This document shows, piece by piece, positions 23,418-34,809 of a DNA stretch of 64,000 nt; position 1 is the stretch's first letter, and each line of letters opens with the position of its first letter. The position numbers and the translations under genes were made by a program. Where the stretch lies: contig NZ_ATHO01000023.1 in assembly GCF_000445065.1 (NCBI RefSeq), positions 1-64,000 on the forward strand, given 5' to 3'. The notes beneath the pieces are model-generated. The model had not been told where the DNA came from. It worked only from the letters and a program-made list of their open reading frames with translations, and ran no database searches. This DNA comes from Sphingobium quisquiliarum P25 (GTDB taxonomy: Bacteria; Pseudomonadota; Alphaproteobacteria; Sphingomonadales; Sphingomonadaceae).

Positions 23418-24710
23418 ATGCCACACTATGATGGTCGCCCCCATGTCCTCATTCTTGGCGGCAATTTCGCCGGGTTGGCCTGCGCACAGAAGGTGCGGCA
23501 ATATGTGGGGGACAGGGCGCGCATCACCGTGATCGATCGCAAAAGCTATCTGCTTTTCATTCCCAACATTCCCGCTGACGTGTTCGAAGATCGCAACCCA
23601 GCACTGCACCAGCGGATGGATCTGGTGCCCATCCTGGCAAAGGATGATATCGATTTTATCCATGGAGAAGTCACTGCTGTCGACATTGCAGCGCGCAATG
23701 TAACCTTCAGGCCCGCAGAACGAGGTGGCGCCGAAGATCATGTCGAACATTATGATTATGTCATCTTCGCACTGGGTGCCCGGCTTGCCTATGATCGGAT
23801 CGAGGGCTTCGCCGAGCACGGCCACACTGTCAGCGACCTGTATCACGGGGAAAAGCTGCGCCGCTATCTCAACACCCGCTACGCAGGCGGCCCGATCGCG
23901 ATCGGATCGGCAAGGTTCCACCAAGGGGACGGAGCTGACGGTCTGGAACCCTATCCCGGCGGATCGATCCCGCGGGCGCTTGCCGCCTGTGAAGGGCCTC
24001 CTGTCGAGGTCATGATGTCGATGGCGACCTGGCTCAAGGATCGGAAACTTGGCGGCCCCGAAAACGTCACTGTCTTTACGCCAGCCCCCATGATCGCGGA
24101 AGATGCAGGCGAGGATGTCGTCAAACAACTCCTGACACTCGCGACCAAGATGGGCTTCAACTACTGGAACAACACGCAGGACGTCACGCGACTGACGGCC
24201 GACGCCATCGAGTTTGCCGATGGCCGCACCCTGCCGGCAGAGGTGAAGATCATTTTCCCCGACTGGGTAGCGCACGACTTTGTCAAAGGCCTGCCTGTCA
24301 GCGATTCCGAAGGGTTCATCAAAACCGACCTGCTGATGCGCAACCCTGACCACCCCGAAGTGTTCGCCTGTGGCGATTGCGCCGCTGTTACGGTGCCCAA
24401 ATTGGGCGCCATCGGACATCAGCAATCAGACATCATCGGGCTTCAACTTGGCAAGATTTTCGGCACCGTGGACGCGGAAAAGGCTGACGTTCCGCTGAAG
24501 CCCGAGGTGCTCTGCATCGGCGATATGGGCGATCGGAAGGCGTTCTGGCTACATTCCAACAGCTGGTTCGGCGGTGACCGCCAAATACTGAAGATGGGGC
24601 GCGTGCCCTATTTCCTGAAAATGCGATATCGCGACATGTTCTTCGCCGCCGATGGCAAAGTGCCCGCATGGGGACTGGATGCCGCAGAACTGATCGCGGA
24701 AGGGCTTTGA
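23418..24710 (+). CDS. FAD-dependent sulfide:quinone-oxidoreductase-like flavoprotein
   Basis: A 430-residue pyridine-nucleotide-disulfide-fold flavoprotein. The FAD-binding motif is HVLILGGNFAGLACAQKVR and the second dinucleotide region includes YDYVIFALGARLAY. The C-terminal FAD contact is EVFACGDCAAVTVP followed by KLGAIGHQQSDIIG. The C-terminal amphipathic tail would touch the membrane. It groups with SQR, FCSD and type-II NADH dehydrogenase proteins. Only the CGDC pair is an obvious redox Cys candidate, so classical SQR activity is uncertain. AAGGAG lies six bases before the ATG. It is followed seven bases later by a 5'-nucleotidase-family gene in one transcript. Confidence 0.75.
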   Translation: MPHYDGRPHVLILGGNFAGLACAQKVRQYVGDRARITVIDRKSYLLFIPNIPADVFEDRNPALHQRMDLVPILAKDDIDFIHGEVTAVDIAARNVTFRPAERGGAEDHVEHYDYVIFALGARLAYDRIEGFAEHGHTVSDLYHGEKLRRYLNTRYAGGPIAIGSARFHQGDGADGLEPYPGGSIPRALAACEGPPVEVMMSMATWLKDRKLGGPENVTVFTPAPMIAEDAGEDVVKQLLTLATKMGFNYWNNTQDVTRLTADAIEFADGRTLPAEVKIIFPDWVAHDFVKGLPVSDSEGFIKTDLLMRNPDHPEVFACGDCAAVTVPKLGAIGHQQSDIIGLQLGKIFGTVDAEKADVPLKPEVLCIGDMGDRKAFWLHSNSWFGGDRQILKMGRVPYFLKMRYRDMFFAADGKVPAWGLDAAELIAEGL

Positions 24711-24716
24711 GCCGCC

Positions 24717-26156
24717 ATGACAAACCTGACCATACTGCAACTCAATGATCTACACGGCTATGTGGAGGCCCACCCCGAACTACAGCGGGATGCGCGCGGC
24801 GATTTTCAGTTCGCGCAAATGGGCGGGCTGGCGCGGATCAAGACTCTGTTCGATCAGGCGCGGCAGGAAAATCCCGGCGGAGTAATTGCGCTGGATAATG
24901 GCGACACGTTCCACGGCACCCATTTCGCCGTGCAGGACCAGGCGCGGGCGATGGTGCCCCTGATCAACGCGCTGGGCTTTGATGCGATGACCCTGCACTG
25001 GGAATTCGCCTACGGCCCGGAACGTGTGGCTGAAATGTCGAGGGAACTGGCCCATCCCATACTCGCCGCGAATATTTTTCGCGAAGACAGTGGCGAACTG
25101 TTCATGCCCCCCTCGACCATCGTCGAACGCAATGGGGTGCGGGTCGGCATTGTCGGCCTCGCTTGCCCGATTGTGGACAAGACGATGCCGCCCTCCTTCA
25201 GCAAGGGGCTTCGCTTCGTCATCGGCAATGCCGAACTGCCCGGCCATATTGCGCGGCTTCGGCAGGATGCCGATCTGATTGTGGTCCTGTCCCACCTCGG
25301 TTTTCCGCAGGATGTGCAACTGGCCAAGGACGTGACCGGAATCGACGTCATCGTCAGCGGGCACACCCACAACCGCATGGAAAACGCCGTCGTCGTCAAT
25401 GGCGCAATCATCTTCCAGTCGGGCTGTCATGGCTCCTATGTCGGGCGGCTTGATCTGGATGTTTCGGACGATGGCCTTCAGGGCTGGCGCCATCGCCTGA
25501 TACCTGTCGATGACAGCGTCGCGAGCGATCCGGGCCTGGCGGATGGTGTCGCCACGGCTCTCGCAAGCGAAAGGCAGGCGATGAGCGAGGTCGTCGGGCA
25601 CACGGACGTCGCACTGCATCGGTATGCGATGCTCAACAGCCCGATGGACGACCTGCTGCTCGAAGCCATCGCCGAGGCAGTGGGAACGCCGATCGCCTTT
25701 TCCAATGGCTGGCGTTACGGCGCACCGATCGCGCCCGGGCCGATAACGATGAACGACCTTTGGAACATGGTGCCGGTGGACCCGCCTGTTTCGGTTGTTG
25801 ACGTTACCGGCTCGGAAATCCGCGAGATGCTGGAGGAAAATCTCGAGCGGACCTTTGCGTCGGATCCGTATGATCAGATGGGTGGCTACATCAAAAGGAT
25901 GCGTGGCGTCCGGCTCGTCTTCAAGGCGGAGAACGATAAAGGCCGCCGTATTGACCGACTATATGTCGACGGCGCTCCGATTGAGGAATCCGCTCGGTAC
26001 ACCGCCGCTTTCATTACTGCCCAAGGTGTTCCAGCGAAATTCGGGACTAACCGGCGTAAACTGCCTATCTCGGCGATTGAAGCTCTGCGTCGAAGGCTTG
26101 CGAGACCATGGCTTGGGGCGGATGGCGCAGAAAGCTCGAGCACTGAACTCGTATAA
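24717..26156 (+). CDS. Bifunctional metallophosphatase/5'-nucleotidase family protein without signal peptide
   Basis: A 479-residue protein. The metallophosphatase domain (1-280) has the metal ligands in LQLNDLHGY, ALDNGDTFHGT, VVLSHLGFPQDV and VSGHTHNRM. The 5'-nucleotidase C-terminal domain (about 300-460) has SNGWRYGAPIAPGPITMNDL. Family members are normally exported, and SoxB thiosulfohydrolases share the fold, but this one begins directly at the first strand (MTNLTILQLND) and has no signal. It is co-transcribed with the flavoprotein. A nucleotide or sulfur-ester substrate in the cytoplasm is possible; the sequence does not decide. Confidence 0.78.
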   Translation: MTNLTILQLNDLHGYVEAHPELQRDARGDFQFAQMGGLARIKTLFDQARQENPGGVIALDNGDTFHGTHFAVQDQARAMVPLINALGFDAMTLHWEFAYGPERVAEMSRELAHPILAANIFREDSGELFMPPSTIVERNGVRVGIVGLACPIVDKTMPPSFSKGLRFVIGNAELPGHIARLRQDADLIVVLSHLGFPQDVQLAKDVTGIDVIVSGHTHNRMENAVVVNGAIIFQSGCHGSYVGRLDLDVSDDGLQGWRHRLIPVDDSVASDPGLADGVATALASERQAMSEVVGHTDVALHRYAMLNSPMDDLLLEAIAEAVGTPIAFSNGWRYGAPIAPGPITMNDLWNMVPVDPPVSVVDVTGSEIREMLEENLERTFASDPYDQMGGYIKRMRGVRLVFKAENDKGRRIDRLYVDGAPIEESARYTAAFITAQGVPAKFGTNRRKLPISAIEALRRRLARPWLGADGAESSSTELV

Positions 26157-26260
26157 TTGCGCGCAATCATATACACGATGACAGAAAGTGAAATATTGTG
26201 TTGGGTGCTTCCGGTTTCCTGCGGTAGGGGTCTGTTATCGCAATCCTGAAAGGACCCGAC

Positions 26261-26890
26261 ATGACCCTGCACATTGGCGACACCGCACCCGATTTCACCG
26301 TCGACACCCAGAACGGCCCCATCAGCCTGCATGAATGGGCTGGCGACTCCTGGGTCTTCTTCTTCAGCCACCCGGCCGATTTCACTCCGGTTTGCACGAC
26401 CGAGATGGGCCGCACAGCCCAGCTTGCCGATCAGTTCGACGCGCGCAACGTCAAACCGCTCGGCCTGTCGACCGACACTGCCGACGAACACCGCAAATGG
26501 ATCGAGGATGTTAATGACACCCAGAACACCAACCTGACCTTTCCCATCGTCGCCGACGCGGATCTGTCGATTGCCAAGATGTATGACATGATTCACCCCG
26601 ATCAGAGCGCGACCGCAGCGGTGCGATCGGTCTTCATCATCGATCCAAAAAAGAAGATCCGGCTGACAATGACCTACCCGATGAGCGTGGGACGCAACTT
26701 CGACGAGATATTGCGCGTGATCGATGCGCTTCAACTCGGTGACGCCAAGCGAATCGCGACCCCGGCAGACTGGCAGAAGGGCAAGGAAGTGATCATTCCT
26801 CCATCGATCAAGGATGACGAGGCACGCGGCCTCTTCCCGCAGGGCTGGACCGAGCACCGCCCTTATCTGCGCACCGTATTGGTGGACTGA
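26261..26890 (+). CDS. 1-Cys peroxiredoxin (Prx6 subfamily)
   Basis: A 209-residue peroxidase with the peroxidatic site FFSHPADFTPVCTTEMG (Cys45). No second cysteine exists anywhere in the protein, so it is strictly 1-Cys. The Prx6-type C-terminal extension (DWQKGKEVIIPPSIKDDEAR) is complete. It reduces hydrogen peroxide or alkyl/sulfur peroxides using an external thiol. It stands alone between the flavoprotein pair and a strong hairpin. A 12-base palindrome, ATTGCGCGCAAT, lies 94 bases upstream at 26156-26167. Confidence 0.92.
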   Translation: MTLHIGDTAPDFTVDTQNGPISLHEWAGDSWVFFFSHPADFTPVCTTEMGRTAQLADQFDARNVKPLGLSTDTADEHRKWIEDVNDTQNTNLTFPIVADADLSIAKMYDMIHPDQSATAAVRSVFIIDPKKKIRLTMTYPMSVGRNFDEILRVIDALQLGDAKRIATPADWQKGKEVIIPPSIKDDEARGLFPQGWTEHRPYLRTVLVD

Positions 26891-26897
26891 GAGTCTG

Positions 26898-26927
26898 ATG
26901 CTGCGAGGCTCTACAGCCTCGCAGCAT
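26898..26927. terminator. Strong hairpin between convergent peroxiredoxin and ArsR genes
   Basis: A perfect 13-base inverted repeat (ATGCTGCGAGGCT and its complement) with a CTAC loop fills the 36-base gap between two convergent genes. It lacks a long T run but is well placed as a two-way terminator. Its right arm overlaps the last codon of the ArsR gene by one base. Confidence 0.75.
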
Positions 26928-27307
26928 CATTTGCGTGGCGCGATCCGAGCGAACATGGCCGCGCCGCCGCCGGCCTGCAGTCGGGCCGCGACCGCGTCGG
27001 CACGGGATATGGCCACCGTCCCCGCATAGGCATCAAGCAAGGCGCTGACTTCAGCGATACGGGCCTGGTTGATGCGATAGAAAACCAGCTTTGCCTCGCG
27101 GCGCGTATGGACAAGGTCGGCCTTCCGCAGGACGCCGAGCTGCTGGCTAAGGCCGGGCTGCACGACATTGGCTAATTGTTCGATCTCACCGACTGAGCGC
27201 TCACCATCTATGAGGGTGCGCAGCAGGGAGAGGCGCACCGGATGCGCAAGCGCGCGGAGCAATTCCGCTGCGGCATCGAGATCAAGCGTCGCGATGTCCG
27301 CCATCAT
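26927..27307 (-). CDS. ArsR-family regulator, BigR/SqrR-like but without cysteine
   Basis: A 126-residue winged-helix repressor with the BigR/SqrR/YgaV-style core: LLRALAHPVRLSLLRTLIDG, then the recognition region NVVQPGLSQQLGVLRKADLV and the wing HTRREAKLVFYRI. BigR and SqrR sense persulfides by joining two cysteines, yet no cysteine is present in this protein. It is cotranscribed with the upstream peroxiredoxin (four-base overlap). It probably binds the inverted repeat at 28011-28037, which controls that pair and the divergent sulfide operon. What it senses is unclear; peroxiredoxin partnership or ligand binding without Cys are possibilities. Confidence 0.85.
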   Translation of the reverse strand: MMADIATLDLDAAAELLRALAHPVRLSLLRTLIDGERSVGEIEQLANVVQPGLSQQLGVLRKADLVHTRREAKLVFYRINQARIAEVSALLDAYAGTVAISRADAVAARLQAGGGAAMFARIAPRK

Positions 27308-27981
27308 GCCTGATCCTTGATCGGCGTATAGAACCAGTCGGTGCCGGCGAGCGCGGCCAGCACGTCGGCGACATCATGACTCGGGACCGCGAGCAGGTCG
27401 CCGCCCGGCATCCAGCCTTCCGGCGCCAGAGCCGATCCATCATGGACACGCTGAAGCGCGGCGACGAGCCGTAGCATCTCCTCCACCGAACGTCCGACGC
27501 TGGCCGGATAGCAGGTCGAGGCGCGCAAAATCCCGTCCGGATCGAGGAAATAGGTCGTCCGCACCGCGCTTGCGTCCATCGCGTTCGGGCCAACCATGCC
27601 ATAGGCGCGCGCGATCTCCAGCGTCGGGTCTTCGATGATCGGGAAGTCCACGACGACATCGAACCGATCGCGGATCGCGCGGATCCAGGCGAGGTGGGAA
27701 AACAGGCTGTCGACCGACAGTGCCATCAGTTCGCAGCCCAGCGCGGCGAATCGATCATGTGCGCGCGCGATCGACACGAACTCGCTGGTGCAGACCGGCG
27801 TGAAGTCCGCGGGGTGCGAAAAGAGCGCAAGCCATCGTCCGCGGAAATCCGAAAGTGAAACCACGCCACGTGTGGAGCGGGCGGTGAAGTCGGGGGCTTC
27901 CTCGCCAAGGCGCAAAGCGGAGCAGGAGGGGAGCTCAGAAGCCAAATCGAACCTTTCATTCATAGTGATCGCCATTGTCAT
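27304..27981 (-). CDS. AhpC/TSA peroxiredoxin (Prx6-like), partner of the ArsR regulator
   Basis: A peroxiredoxin of about 225 residues with active site FSHPADFTPVCTSEF and the C-terminal Prx6-type extension. Unlike the protein at 26261-26890 it has further cysteines (near ELPSCSALRL, AALGCELMAL and RASTCYPAS), so intramolecular disulfides are possible. Start choice is uncertain: ATGs at 27990, 27981, 27975 and 27963 are in frame; the family core begins near RLGEEAPDF. It overlaps the ArsR start by four bases and is divergent from the persulfide dioxygenase operon. Confidence 0.85.
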   Translation of the reverse strand: MTMAITMNERFDLASELPSCSALRLGEEAPDFTARSTRGVVSLSDFRGRWLALFSHPADFTPVCTSEFVSIARAHDRFAALGCELMALSVDSLFSHLAWIRAIRDRFDVVVDFPIIEDPTLEIARAYGMVGPNAMDASAVRTTYFLDPDGILRASTCYPASVGRSVEEMLRLVAALQRVHDGSALAPEGWMPGGDLLAVPSHDVADVLAALAGTDWFYTPIKDQA

Positions 27982-28010: not shown

Positions 28011-28037
28011 CTCGATTATTTGAAACGTGTAATCGAG
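28011..28037. promoter_or_regulatory. Inverted repeat operator in the divergent sulfide promoter
   Basis: CTCGATTA (28011-28018) and TAATCGAG (28030-28037) are perfect inverted copies around an 11-base spacer. A candidate -35 TTGACG (27994-27999) with a TATTTG -10 17 bases later would serve the rightward operon and overlaps the left arm. A leftward TTACAC-N16-TATTGT also overlaps the repeat. One repressor here could close both promoters; the ArsR protein next door is the obvious candidate. Confidence 0.75.
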
Positions 28038-28055: not shown

Positions 28056-28988
28056 ATGGACCACCCTGATGAGCCGCTCATGCTCGCAACGCAGATTGTC
28101 GCTGATACCCACGCCGGGAAGATAACCGCGCCGGTTGTGCGCTCGTTCTTTGACGAGCCGACATTCACGGCAAGCTATGTGGTGCACGACCCGGCAACCC
28201 GGTCAGCCGCCATCATCGACAGCGTGCTCGACTTCGATCCCGCATCCGGCCGCACGGACCACGGCTCTGCGCAGGCGATCATCGATTATGTCGAGGCTGA
28301 AGGGCTGAAGGTCGAGTGGCTGCTGGAAACCCATGCCCATGCCGATCATCTGTCTGCCGCGCCTTTCCTTCAGGAAAAGCTGGGGGGCAAGCTCGCCATC
28401 GGCCGCGTGATCACGACAGTCCAGAACGTGTTCGGCAAGATCTTCAACGAAGGCACGCAGTTCGAGCGTGACGGGTCGCAGTTCGACCATCTGTTCGATG
28501 ACGGAGACAGATTCTCGATCGGTTCGATCCCTGCGGTCGCGCTGCATGTGCCGGGGCATACGCCCGCTGACCTGGCCTATGTGATCGGCGACGCGGTGTT
28601 CACCGGCGACACGCTGTTCATGCCGGACTATGGCACCGCCCGCGCGGATTTCCCCGGCGGCAATGCGCGAATGCTTTATCGCTCTATCCGCCGCCTGATG
28701 GATTTGCCGCGCGAGACGCGCACTTTCCTGTGCCATGATTACAAGGCACCGGGCCGCGACGACTTTGTGTGGGAAACCACCATCGGACAGGAACGCGACT
28801 CCAATGTCCATGTCCATGAAGGCGTGGGCGAGGACGAGTTCGTTGAAATGCGCACCCGGCGTGACGCGACGCTGGGGATGCCACGGCTTATACTCCCCTC
28901 GATACAGGTGAATATGCGCGGCGGGCATCTGCCTGAGCCGGAAGAGAATGGCACGCGCTACCTCAAGCTTCCGCTGGATGTGCTGTGA
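28056..28988 (+). CDS. Persulfide dioxygenase-type MBL-fold protein (ETHE1/Blh-like)
   Basis: A 310-residue metallo-beta-lactamase-fold iron protein. The metal motif LETHAHADHLSA (His93, His95, Asp97, His98) is complete, with downstream ligands in HVPGHTPADLAYV, FTGDTLFMPDYGTA and FLCHDYKAPGRD. ETHE1/Blh enzymes oxidise glutathione persulfide to sulfite. GGAGAG precedes the ATG at 28056; a longer upstream reading has no ribosome binding site. It heads a continuous operon running through two YeeE/YedE proteins, a phosphatase-SQR fusion and TauE, so sulfide made into persulfide and sulfite would be handled in sequence. Confidence 0.88.
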   Translation: MDHPDEPLMLATQIVADTHAGKITAPVVRSFFDEPTFTASYVVHDPATRSAAIIDSVLDFDPASGRTDHGSAQAIIDYVEAEGLKVEWLLETHAHADHLSAAPFLQEKLGGKLAIGRVITTVQNVFGKIFNEGTQFERDGSQFDHLFDDGDRFSIGSIPAVALHVPGHTPADLAYVIGDAVFTGDTLFMPDYGTARADFPGGNARMLYRSIRRLMDLPRETRTFLCHDYKAPGRDDFVWETTIGQERDSNVHVHEGVGEDEFVEMRTRRDATLGMPRLILPSIQVNMRGGHLPEPEENGTRYLKLPLDVL

Positions 28989-29419
28989 TGCCTGACTATG
29001 CCATGCCGGTGCAGGGACTGATCGGTGGTCTGATGATCGGCACGGCGGCTGCCATCATGCTGCTGGGCGCGGGCCGCATCGCTGGCGTCAGCGGCATGGC
29101 GGCGCGGGCGATCGGGCTGGGCGGCGGCGCACCGCGCACGCTCGCGCTGGCCTTCATCATCGGCCTGCCTCTCGGCGCGGCACTTGTCGCATGGCTGGCG
29201 GGACCGATACTGTCACGCTTCCCCATGAGCATGGCAATGCTCGCTGTCGCCGGGCTGATCGTCGGCATCGGCACGCGGCTGGGGTCGGGGTGCACCTCCG
29301 GCCACGGCGTATGCGGCATGTCGCGGCTGTCGAAGCGATCCATCGTTGCGACATGCACCTTCATGGCGACCGGCTTTGCGACCGTGGCCATCGTCAATGC
29401 AGTCGGAGGTGGCTGGTGA
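28988..29419 (+). CDS. YeeE/YedE-family sulfur transporter half (first)
   Basis: A 143-residue inner-membrane protein of about four helices with the hallmark RLGSGCTSGHGVCGMSRLS, whose cysteines line the thiosulfate/sulfur path in YeeE proteins. It overlaps the dioxygenase stop by one base and the next gene by one base. Such short proteins come in pairs (PmpA/PmpB type) that together equal one full YeeE. Here they probably move sulfur compounds across the inner membrane for the persulfide pathway. Confidence 0.87.
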   Translation: MPDYAMPVQGLIGGLMIGTAAAIMLLGAGRIAGVSGMAARAIGLGGGAPRTLALAFIIGLPLGAALVAWLAGPILSRFPMSMAMLAVAGLIVGIGTRLGSGCTSGHGVCGMSRLSKRSIVATCTFMATGFATVAIVNAVGGGW

Positions 29420-29841
29420 TGCGCACCGTGATCGGCCTTGCCTCCGGCCTGCTGTTCGGTGCGGGTCTTGCCGTTTCGGGAATGCTGGACCCTGTGCGGG
29501 TCCGCGGGTTCCTGGACCTGTTCGGCGTCTGGGATCCCACCCTTGCCTTTGTCATGGGCGGGGCGATGATCCCCATGGCCATCGCCTGGCTGGTCCAGCG
29601 GCGGATGGCGGCGCCCGTCGCCGATGCCGATTTTCATCTCCCCGATACCAACCCGATCACGCCGCGCCTGCTCGGCGGGTCTGCCTTGTTCGGCATTGGA
29701 TGGGGGCTTGGCGGCCTTTGCCCCGGTCCTGCGCTGGCCGCCTTTGCCATCAATCCTGCGGCAGCCGCCGTTTTCACTGCTGCGATGGCGGTCGGCTTCG
29801 CGATCGTCTGGGCGCTTGATCGCCCGCCGGTCCACGCCTGA
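29419..29841 (+). CDS. YeeE/YedE-family sulfur transporter half (second, DUF6691-type)
   Basis: A 140-residue membrane protein with four helices and the conserved GMLDPVRVRGFLDLFG and GIGWGLGGLCPGPALA. The Cys in GLCPGPA is the typical substrate-contacting residue. It pairs with the preceding gene, which it overlaps by one base (TGATG). The two-gene form of YeeE frequently accompanies BigR-regulated sulfide detoxification genes. Confidence 0.87.
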   Translation: MRTVIGLASGLLFGAGLAVSGMLDPVRVRGFLDLFGVWDPTLAFVMGGAMIPMAIAWLVQRRMAAPVADADFHLPDTNPITPRLLGGSALFGIGWGLGGLCPGPALAAFAINPAAAAVFTAAMAVGFAIVWALDRPPVHA

Positions 29842-29862: not shown

Positions 29863-31548
<1,686 letters not shown>

Positions 31549-31553
31549 TCGCC

Positions 31554-32333
31554 ATGCTCGAACCGCTGCAATATGTCCTGGGCCTGCTGTCTGGCTCGCT
31601 GGTCGGCTTTTCGCTGGGGCTGGTTGGCGGCGGTGGATCGATCCTGGCCGTGCCGCTGATGGTCTATCTGGTCGGCGTCTCCAGCCCGCATGTCGCCATC
31701 GGCACGTCGGCGCTGGCGGTCGCGGTCAACGCCGCAACGGGGCTGGCCAGCCATGCGCGGGAGCATACGGTCAAATGGCGCTGCGGCGGCATGTATGCGG
31801 CGGCGGGCGTCCTTGGCGCGCTGGGCGGGTCGACAATCGGCAAGGCGTTCGATGGACAAAAGCTGCTGTTCCTGTTCGCTCTCGTGATGATCGTCGTTGG
31901 CATATTGATGCTGCGCGGGCGCAAGGCGCTCGGCATAGCGGGCGCCCAATGCAATCGTGAGAATGCGCCCAAGGTGCTGGGCTATGGGCTGGGCACTGGC
32001 ATCTTCTCCGGCTTTTTCGGTATCGGCGGCGGTTTCCTGATCGTCCCCGGCCTCGTCGCATCGACCAGTATGCCGATCATCAACGCGGTCGGAACCAGTC
32101 TCGTGGCGGTGACGGCATTCGGCCTGACGACAGCCGCCAACTACGCATTTTCCGGGCTGATCGACTGGGCGCTGGCTGGCGTATTCATCACTGGCGGCAT
32201 CGCTGGCGGGTTCATCGGCACGATCGTGGCCAAGCGGCTGTCTGGCACCGGCACGTTGACCACGGTGTTCGCCGTCCTGATCTTTGTCGTGGCAGCCTAT
32301 ATGCTGGTTAAAAGCGTTGGCGCGATAGTGTAG
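31554..32333 (+). CDS. TauE/SafE-family sulfite exporter
   Basis: A 259-residue protein with about eight membrane helices in two repeats. The repeats open with GSLVGFSLGLVGGGGSILAVP and GIFSGFFGIGGGFLIVPGLV, the glycine-rich motif that marks TauE/SafE. It would remove sulfite produced by the dioxygenase. The ATG at 31554 follows the previous stop by five bases; a GTG at 31545 is an alternative that overlaps it. Confidence 0.9.
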   Translation: MLEPLQYVLGLLSGSLVGFSLGLVGGGGSILAVPLMVYLVGVSSPHVAIGTSALAVAVNAATGLASHAREHTVKWRCGGMYAAAGVLGALGGSTIGKAFDGQKLLFLFALVMIVVGILMLRGRKALGIAGAQCNRENAPKVLGYGLGTGIFSGFFGIGGGFLIVPGLVASTSMPIINAVGTSLVAVTAFGLTTAANYAFSGLIDWALAGVFITGGIAGGFIGTIVAKRLSGTGTLTTVFAVLIFVVAAYMLVKSVGAIV

Positions 32334-32392: not shown

Positions 32393-33796
32393 ATGTTCGA
32401 CGCTTTCGATGCCTTGCTGCTCGCCCGAATCCAGTTCGGGTTCACGGTCAGCTTCCACTTCATCTTTCCGGCCTTTTCGATTGGCCTGGCCAGCTATCTG
32501 ATGGTCCTGGAGGGACTGTGGCTGAAAACCGGGCGGGACATCTATCTCGACCTGTTCCGCTACTGGGTGAAAATCTTTGCAATTGCCTTTGCGATGGGCG
32601 TGGTTTCCGGCATCGTCATGTCCTATCAGTTCGGCACCAACTGGTCGGTTTTCTCGACAAAGGCAGGGCCGGTGATCGGGCCGCTGATGGCCTATGAAGT
32701 GCTCACCGCTTTCTTCCTGGAGGCAGGCTTCCTTGGCGTCATGCTGTTCGGCATGTCCAAGGTGGGCAAGGGGCTGCATTTTGCCGCTACCTGCATGGTG
32801 GCGCTCGGCACGTTCATTTCGGCTTTCTGGATATTGTCGGTGAACAGCTGGATGCAGACGCCCACGGGCTTTGAGATCTCACCCGATGGCCGTTTCCTGC
32901 CGGGCCCTTCCTGGCTGGCGATCATCTTCAACCCCAGCTTTCCCTATCGGCTCGTCCATACGGTGATTGCTGCCTATCTGACGACGGCTTTTGTGGTTGG
33001 CGCGGTCGGGGCCTGGCATCTGCTGCGCGACTGCAGAAACCTGCACGCGCGAAAGATGTTCAGCATGGCGATGTGGATGGCCGCGATCGTCGCGCCGGTC
33101 CAGATTTTCGCCGGTGACATGCATGGCCTCAACACGCTGGAGCATCAGCCCGCCAAGGTCATGGCGATGGAGGGGCATTATGACAGCCATCCGGACGGCG
33201 CGCCGCTAATCCTGTTCGGCATTCCCAACAGCGCGGAGAAGCGCATCGATTATGCCGTCGAAATTCCCAAGGCGTCTTCGCTGATCCTGAAGCACGATCT
33301 GGACGCACCGCTCGCCGGCCTCGATACGATTCCCGATGACCGCGAGCCTCCCGTGCCGGTCATCTTCTGGTCGTTCCGCGTAATGGTTGGCATTGGCTTT
33401 GCCATGCTCGGTCTTGGGTTGTGGAGCCTGTTCGCGCGGATGCGTAAACGCCTTTACGACTGGCCGGGGCTGCATCGCGCTGCCGTGCTGATGGGGCCGT
33501 CGGGCTTCGTTGCGGTTATCGCGGGGTGGATCACAACCGAAGTCGGCAGGCAGCCATATACCGTCTATGGAGAATTGCTGACAGCCCAAAGCAGTTCTCC
33601 CCTTGCAGCGCCCGCTGTCGGTGCATCCCTGATCGCGTTCGTCATCGTCTATTTCGCGGTCTTTGGTGCGGGCACATGGTATATTCTGCACCTGATGCAC
33701 AGGCCGGCCGTGCCGCATGAGCCCGAACATGAACCTGTGCCCGTGCGCGCCGCGGGCATAACCCCTGCGCCTGCCATCGTCACCGGGGCGGAGTAA
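32393..33796 (+). CDS. cydA: Cytochrome bd-type ubiquinol oxidase subunit I (CIO type)
   Basis: A 467-residue heme-binding subunit with nine helices. Axial His22 lies in QFGFTVSFHFIFPAF, and the menaquinol/ubiquinol-side motif is EVGRQPYTVYG. The Q-loop is short, which is the mark of cyanide-insensitive oxidases (CioA) rather than E. coli CydA. Such oxidases resist sulfide, so their presence directly after a sulfide-oxidation operon makes sense: electrons from the SQR proteins could reach oxygen when heme-copper oxidases are blocked. The gap to TauE is 59 bases, so it is probably in the same transcript. Confidence 0.92.
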   Translation: MFDAFDALLLARIQFGFTVSFHFIFPAFSIGLASYLMVLEGLWLKTGRDIYLDLFRYWVKIFAIAFAMGVVSGIVMSYQFGTNWSVFSTKAGPVIGPLMAYEVLTAFFLEAGFLGVMLFGMSKVGKGLHFAATCMVALGTFISAFWILSVNSWMQTPTGFEISPDGRFLPGPSWLAIIFNPSFPYRLVHTVIAAYLTTAFVVGAVGAWHLLRDCRNLHARKMFSMAMWMAAIVAPVQIFAGDMHGLNTLEHQPAKVMAMEGHYDSHPDGAPLILFGIPNSAEKRIDYAVEIPKASSLILKHDLDAPLAGLDTIPDDREPPVPVIFWSFRVMVGIGFAMLGLGLWSLFARMRKRLYDWPGLHRAAVLMGPSGFVAVIAGWITTEVGRQPYTVYGELLTAQSSSPLAAPAVGASLIAFVIVYFAVFGAGTWYILHLMHRPAVPHEPEHEPVPVRAAGITPAPAIVTGAE

Positions 33797-33801
33797 ACGC
33801 G

Positions 33802-34809
33802 ATGGGCATCAATGTCGATCTGACGGTCATCTGGGCTTTCATCATCGCCTTTGCCGTATTCATGTACGTCGTCATGGACGGGTTCGACCTGGGCATCGGC
33901 ATCCTGTTCCCCAGCTTCAAGGTGGGGGAAGAACGCGATCAGGCGATGAATTCGATCGCGCCGGTGTGGGACGGTAATGAAACCTGGCTGGTGCTGGGCG
34001 GAGGCGGGCTTTTTGCCGCTTTCCCGCTGGCCTATGGTGTGATCCTGACCGCGACCTACCCCCTCATCATCGCGATGCTTCTGGGGCTGGTGTTCCGCGG
34101 CGTGGCGTTCGAATTTCGCTGGCGCGATCCACGCCACCGCGCGCTGTGGGATATGGCATTCAGCGTCGGTTCCTTCATCGCCGCCTTTGCACAGGGCGTG
34201 ACGCTGGGTGCGATCCTCCAGGGCGTTCAGGTCGAAAACCAGGCCTATGCCGGTGGCTGGCTCGACTGGCTGACCCCGTTCAGCCTGTTGACCGGCGCCG
34301 GGGTGGTGATCGGCTACGCGCTGCTAGGCGCCACCTGGCTGATCTGGAAGGTGGAGGGGACCGCTGAGGCGCACGCGCGCAGGCTCGCCCTTTGGGCGGC
34401 GATCGGCACCTTGTTCGCAATGGCCGCAGTCAGCGCCGCGACCCCATTTTTGCAGTTCGAATATTGGAAGCGCTGGTTCGATATGCCCGGCGTGCTGGCG
34501 ACCGCACAGGTGCCGTTGCTTACCGCGATTGTCGCATTCCTGTTGTTCCGGAAGCTGCGCGGCGGGGCGACGGCAGCACCGTTCCTGCTCGCGCTGGCCC
34601 TGTTCGCTTTGGGATTTGCAGGTCTTGGCATCAGCCTGTTCCCCTATATCGTGCCCGACAGCATAACGATTTGGGACGCTGCCGCGCCAGAGCGGAGCCA
34701 AGTCTTTATGTTGATCGGCACCGCGATCATCATGCCAATTATCCTTGCCTACACAGGATGGGCCTATTGGGTCTTTCGTGGCAAAGTTGGCACGCACGGC
34801 TATCACTGA
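33802..34809 (+). CDS. cydB: Cytochrome bd-type oxidase subunit II (CIO type)
   Basis: A 335-residue partner subunit with about eight helices, starting five bases after cydA. It has the conserved VMDGFDLGIGILFPSF and PVWDGNETWLVLGGGGLFAAF. It stabilises the heme core of subunit I. Its stop overlaps the start of the small third subunit by one base. Confidence 0.92.
   Translation: MGINVDLTVIWAFIIAFAVFMYVVMDGFDLGIGILFPSFKVGEERDQAMNSIAPVWDGNETWLVLGGGGLFAAFPLAYGVILTATYPLIIAMLLGLVFRGVAFEFRWRDPRHRALWDMAFSVGSFIAAFAQGVTLGAILQGVQVENQAYAGGWLDWLTPFSLLTGAGVVIGYALLGATWLIWKVEGTAEAHARRLALWAAIGTLFAMAAVSAATPFLQFEYWKRWFDMPGVLATAQVPLLTAIVAFLLFRKLRGGATAAPFLLALALFALGFAGLGISLFPYIVPDSITIWDAAAPERSQVFMLIGTAIIMPIILAYTGWAYWVFRGKVGTHGYH

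Follow-up and report, generated by a model that had tools for sequence, protein, structure and literature searches.

Sulfur detoxification in many sphingomonads appears to be governed by a repressor now lacking the two cysteines through which related proteins detect sulfur. The case analyzed here lies in 64,000 nt of Sphingobium quisquiliarum P25 DNA (NZ_ATHO01000023.1, positions 1 to 64,000; hereafter the window), where a Cys-less BigR/SqrR-like regulator is paired with a peroxiredoxin (Prx). This type of Prx-paired repressor is no one-off, and is more general than an earlier sequence-only reading of the locus could know. We tentatively interpret the regulator as a functional BigR-type repressor from which sensing may have moved away, most likely to the co-translated peroxiredoxin, an interpretation that as a whole seems to us quite possible rather than probable. 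New here are the A-x-F-A tail of the regulator, a 23-bp operator-like palindrome common to Cys-less and Cys-bearing classes, and, ahead of a 1-Cys Prx gene, another site of this kind.

The sequence-only reading had placed the regulator beside a persulfide dioxygenase, a sulfide:quinone reductase (SQR) and an exporter. Pfam and NCBIfam matches agree, with an ETHE1-like protein, an SQR fusion and a TauE protein in the operon divergent from the Prx-regulator pair, tying the regulator to sulfide-oxidation genes (Table 1). The ETHE1-like protein has a metallo-beta-lactamase fold, and its best NCBIfam match is Blh, below the cut-off of that model. The hairpin between the convergent regulator and 1-Cys Prx genes may terminate both transcripts. 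Upstream of the 1-Cys Prx gene and on the same strand, positions 23418-26156 encode two proteins that score below curated cut-offs, one an SQR-like flavoprotein and the other SoxB-like/5'-nucleotidase. After TauE, two genes at 32393-34809 read like subunits of a cytochrome bd-type oxidase; oxidases of this type are sulfide-tolerant.

Table 1. Features of the Prx-regulator locus in the window.
Feature	Positions	Strand	Basis
BigR/SqrR-like ArsR-family repressor, Cys-less, 126 aa	26927..27307, stop included	-	ORF, domain, sequence and fold searches
Regulator codons 115-122, GAAMFARI, conserved C-terminal tail motif	26942..26965	-	Column counts, linked/unlinked contrast, synonymous variation
Prx6-like peroxiredoxin, 4 Cys (Cys58 peroxidatic, Cys77 conserved)	27304..27963	-	ORF, Pfam/NCBIfam, alignment
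Palindromic operator-like site in divergent promoter, CGATTATTTGAAACGTGTAATCG	28013..28035	.	Best site of the window; conserved in L008-L012
ETHE1-type (persulfide dioxygenase-like) protein, first gene of divergent operon	28056..28988	+	Pfam/NCBIfam
Sulf_transp (YeeE/YedE-type) half transporter	28985..29419	+	Pfam/NCBIfam
DUF6691 membrane protein	29419..29841	+	Pfam/NCBIfam; start inferred by residue counting
Blh-phosphatase-like (sulfurtransferase) domain fused to sulfide:quinone reductase-like flavoprotein (SQR)	29863..31548	+	Pfam/NCBIfam
TauE/SafE family exporter	about 31548..32333	+	Pfam/NCBIfam
Operator-like site no. 2, upstream of 1-Cys Prx gene	26168..26190	.	Second-best site of the window; also second in L008-L012
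1-Cys Prx6-type peroxiredoxin, convergent with regulator, probable further target	26261..26890	+	Pfam/NCBIfam
14-bp perfect hairpin between convergent genes, possible bidirectional terminator	26897..26928	.	Read from sequence by eye

As the sequence-only reading had stated, translation of the regulator frame gives 126 residues with zero Cys. The absence is no sequencing error, for Cys is also missing from its closest relatives, which come from four further Sphingobium genomes and one Porphyrobacter MAG. Taken alone it is unremarkable and no evidence of anything: given how often Cys occurs in 13 window genes (0.0062), P for its absence from a protein of this length is about 0.46. The point is the loss of a defining Cys pair, that of helices alpha2 and alpha5, rather than the absence of Cys as such. 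By both sequence and fold, the protein is a winged-helix ArsR regulator nearest BigR/SqrR: the closest solved structure by sequence was BigR (3pqj, 5e-22), which also ranked first in a fold search with the AlphaFold model (pLDDT 84, with a long alpha5 and a tail at pLDDT 55-62). Rv0081 was the second-nearest solved structure, and the ArsR protein NolR was also among the nearest. At 89.2 bits, the regulator does not reach the NCBIfam BigR cut-off of 155, a curated threshold passed in none of 14 control genomes and by no regulator of S. quisquiliarum P25.

Passages of PMC5823870 describe BigR of Xylella/Agrobacterium as sensing through Cys42 and Cys108 and controlling an ETHE1-type dioxygenase operon. 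The window regulator is like BigR, encoded in an operon with the sulfurtransferase/dioxygenase Blh, in its structure and its association with an ETHE1-type operon, but both cysteines are gone and a Prx gene and a tail are added. For the wider ArsR persulfide-sensor cluster of SqrR, YgaV, HlyU and SoxR, parts of PMC10509353 give the Cys pair in helices 2 and 5 as the characterizing feature, parts of PMC10509353, PMC5823870 and PMC10451225 treat this pair as the mark of a persulfide sensor, and parts of PMC10509353 and PMC10451225 note sulfur-metabolism gene neighbours. The window regulator is like these proteins in fold, sequence and sulfur neighbours but does not have their Cys pair. Its fold, gene neighbours and probable targets resemble those of the BigR/SqrR sensors, whereas their defining Cys feature is missing.

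For a comparison across relatives, we examined 181 loci, comprising the window, 80 loci from named genomes and 100 regions of 397 family genomes searched; these 100 regions, fetched with the weakest matches left out, included 99 linked loci and one unlinked. A locus was called linked if a Prx gene lay directly upstream of the regulator on the same strand, which held for 105 of the 181 loci, the window included (one contig stands twice among the 105, as L012 and L117). The linked regulators were Cys-less at 77 loci, had one Cys at 20, and at the remaining 8 carried a non-canonical pair at positions 31/87 (window numbering). As 100 distinct proteins, they divided into 73 without Cys, 19 with one, and 8 with two or more. 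The canonical BigR pair (30/96, window numbering) occurred in 0/105 linked vs 52/76 unlinked regulators; another 13 of the 76 unlinked relatives had no Cys at all, and these had neither Prx nor tail. An ETHE persulfide dioxygenase was divergent in 81/105 linked loci, and ETHE, SQR and TauE neighbours were missing from the stretch fetched in 20/105. At 8/105 loci (L131, L132, L134, L140, L144, L149, L165 and L196), the divergent gene encoded by Pfam a thioredoxin-2 type protein instead of the dioxygenase. Thioredoxin is a usual reductant partner of Prx, and its presence in this position fits a Prx-centred regulon.

Linked regulators end, after a variable linker, in the motif [AV]-A-x-F-A-[RK]. 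F119 and A120 were found in 105/105 linked regulators and A117 in 104/105, and the A-x-F-A motif distinguished 104/105 linked from 0/76 unlinked regulators. Codons of the tail vary synonymously across linked loci, indicating selection at the protein level. The family search query carried the tail and so favoured tailed relatives; for this reason, searches were repeated with a tail-less profile and from the Prx side. Both recovered the Prx pairing in other alphaproteobacterial families, where the pairs read (in the tail-blind class search, among 30 of its loci) mostly had F-containing tails and none of the unlinked regulators read did. In the pooled set, the F-tail was present in 134/140 linked vs 0/99 unlinked regulators; the six linked exceptions were one tail cut by a contig end, one reading SVFARA, and four diverged tails. 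Most sphingomonad members have the tail close to the end of the protein, and in other families the motif is followed by long extensions. In the paired regulators L314-L316, L318, L319, L321, L322 and L326, from other families of the order, a further conserved end motif, K/R-x-x-PDPYR or similar, stands behind the F-tail region.

Apart from the tail, the near-invariant columns in the alignment of linked regulators were mainly DNA-binding-domain positions. These columns bear on an alternative in which the Cys-less repressor senses a metabolite, cofactor or metal directly, the tail is structural or dimer-stabilizing, and the Prx is simply a co-regulated enzyme. Non-thiol sites are known from other ArsR proteins, and sections of the HlyU paper (PMC10509353) present clusters 2 and 3, with Rv0081, as lacking a known inducer, Rv0081 being the second-nearest structure noted above. 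Against such direct sensing, no ligand-type residue stands out among the near-invariant columns, and the co-occurrence of tail and Prx is left unexplained. We regard it as rather unlikely.

Upstream of linked Prx genes, an inverted TACA-N7-TGTA was present in 29 of 88 dereplicated regions, with 0.3 expected. A refined 23-bp palindrome, CAtTTACAtAAaTTaTGTAAaTG, scored above 8 bits in 83/88 regions vs 12/440 shuffled sequences. Refinement and counting of this model drew on one set of sequences, with mononucleotide shuffling as the control, so held-out sites are the better evidence: 10/10 held-out pairs of the window's type had an operator-like site. The site was found with all Cys classes, at 75/77 Cys-less loci, 17/20 with one Cys and 8/8 with two or more. 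Outside the window's type the model was weak, with 8/18 pairs and 2/8 solo Prx copies passing 8 bits. Across the 64-kb window, the site in the divergent promoter ranked best and that before the 1-Cys Prx gene second, and the same two sites were the top two in each of five relatives (L008-L012), from which the 1-Cys Prx gene is probably part of the regulon. The bare operator pattern showed no genome-wide enrichment in S. quisquiliarum P25 (174 sites per strand at two or fewer mismatches vs 445 for the reversed control).

A second Prx-ArsR pair was found in the same genome on contig C5 (G000:C5:26823-27170, L205), divergent from an ETHE-like gene and preceded by a near-consensus operator-like site with one mismatch. 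Its regulator carries Cys32 and Cys88 and is a natural Cys-bearing counterpart of the window regulator. It also suggests another account, in which a Cys-bearing paralogue or other regulator senses the signal: here the C5 regulator, acting on the same site or as a heterodimer, and elsewhere FisR, CstR or another protein. The C5 pair with its site speaks for this, as does the operator type common to Cys-less and Cys-bearing classes. However, among the 199 family genomes searched, 35 had just one BigR-like match and it was of the paired type (a count by eye), and in 22 of the 28 that were classified, this sole BigR-like regulator was Cys-less (BigR-like matches alone were counted). A Cys-bearing BigR paralogue is therefore not the general sensor, and we judge this account improbable.

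The preferred candidate for the sensor, the Prx, contains an AhpC-TSA domain (PF00578) with the peroxidatic Cys motif. No match to the 1-cysPrx_C domain (PF10417) was found in it, whereas the Prx at 26261 has one. The Prx gene lies upstream of the regulator and its stop codon overlaps the regulator start by 4 nt (ATGA), an overlap of exactly this length in 69/105 linked loci. The sequence-only reading had coupled the regulator to a multi-Cys peroxiredoxin; the coupling is borne out by the overlap and the window Prx does encode 4 Cys, but just 2 of these are conserved in nearly all relatives, peroxidatic Cys58 (105/105 linked loci) and Cys77 (102/105). We considered Cys77 together with a W-F/Y end as marks of a paired Prx, and rejected them after both were also found in solo Prx copies. 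Long open frames had likewise suggested a Prx-regulator fusion as Rosetta-stone evidence, but the stop and start positions showed an overlap and no fusion. AlphaFold gave a mediocre Prx model (pLDDT 70, 7 sequences). In Prx-regulator covariation, tail columns 118 and 122 ranked 6 and 8 of 90, towards one Prx helix (94, 91), yet in 7/71 cases two columns at this spacing of four have near partners in common, and 2/12 and 0/12 permutations reach these values.

Pairing with a Prx does not entail Cys loss, given the Cys-bearing pair in the same genome and the linked regulators of other alphaproteobacterial families that keep the canonical pair (L332, L333, L335 and L336). For the same reason, the Prx is no simple replacement sensor, and its linkage may be earlier than the loss of the cysteines. 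Both linkage and Cys state cluster on the phylogeny; a poorly resolved tree (70 columns, 239 rows) indicated at least 6 changes of linkage and 13 of Cys-pair state, with one supported independent pair, which gives a phylogenetically independent comparison of linkage with Cys-pair loss no power.

Under our preferred interpretation, a BigR-type repressor lacking the persulfide-sensing pair would still be functional, acting on the divergent Prx-regulator and persulfide-oxidation operons through the predicted TTACA-N7-TGTAA type palindrome and probably repressing the 1-Cys Prx gene through the same palindrome type. Sensing would have been handed from the repressor, most likely to the co-translated Prx6-like peroxiredoxin. 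Oxidation or persulfidation of the Prx would alter how it contacts the repressor non-covalently, plausibly at the conserved A-x-F-A-[R/K] tail, and DNA would be released. We thus infer that the operator sites would be bound, the tail would be a docking motif, and the Prx would sense a signal of sulfide or peroxide. The observations beneath this proposal are those of sequence: Cys loss, gene overlap, the tail, operator-like sites, and no Cys-bearing BigR paralogue in most of the genomes checked. Counting against it are, besides the Cys-bearing pairs and the phylogenetic clustering, the 13/76 unlinked relatives that are also Cys-less and the 20/105 linked loci without ETHE, SQR and TauE neighbours in the stretch fetched.

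That the Prx senses and passes the signal on had already been proposed by the sequence-only reading. The canonical pair in 0/105 linked regulators, the 77/105 that are Cys-less, the overlap in 69/105, the tail in 104/105 vs 0/76, and the 22/28 single-regulator genomes with a Cys-less protein all favour the idea; the Prx copies paired with Cys-bearing regulators, and the Cys77 and W-F/Y end in solo copies, weigh against it. A Prx role is a fair hypothesis, with new circumstantial support from tail, linkage, operator and scarce Cys-bearing paralogues. In its most specific form, an alphaproteobacterial module in which sensing has been handed to an enzyme, with the Prx as persulfide/peroxide sensor and as an anti-repressor that binds a Cys-free ArsR protein by its A-x-F-A-[R/K] tail, it is doubtful though possible. 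Of low probability is a reading in which repression is constitutive or no more than autogenous, the cysteines decayed because regulation had ceased to respond to sulfur, and the tail signals degradation or stability, with proteolysis setting the levels of the protein. The cheapness of Cys absence by chance (P about 0.46) and the near-terminal tail of most sphingomonad members agree with it, but conservation is strong in the DNA-binding residues, the operator and the tail, and the long extensions behind the motif in other families are unlike a terminal degron.

Known redox circuits offer partial likenesses to the proposed Prx-based sensing. Orp1-Yap1 is a redox relay from a peroxidase to a transcription factor. 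In the Prx2-STAT3 relay, as set out in portions of PMC7481202, a thiol peroxidase likewise serves as the sensor for a transcription factor. Target thiols are oxidized in both relays, whereas the window regulator has zero Cys and with it no redox-active target for a Prx thiol relay; this rules out a classical relay, and any transfer from Prx to repressor must be non-covalent. RexT, the Nostoc ArsR-family H2O2 sensor, is according to parts of PMC8960804 tied to a thioredoxin gene and senses by its own vicinal cysteines; it is like the present case as an ArsR protein tied to the gene of a thiol redox protein, and differs in that its own cysteines do the sensing. Our searches of open-access literature turned up no description of a Prx paired with a Cys-less ArsR protein.

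A large natural group of regulators thus has the BigR fold, neighbours and operator-like site without the Cys pair, and for these proteins a BigR annotation would mislead about sensing. The paired peroxiredoxin and conserved tail provide a specific sensing candidate. As Cys-less and Cys-bearing versions stand by the same operator type, even in one genome, the site of sensing is directly testable.
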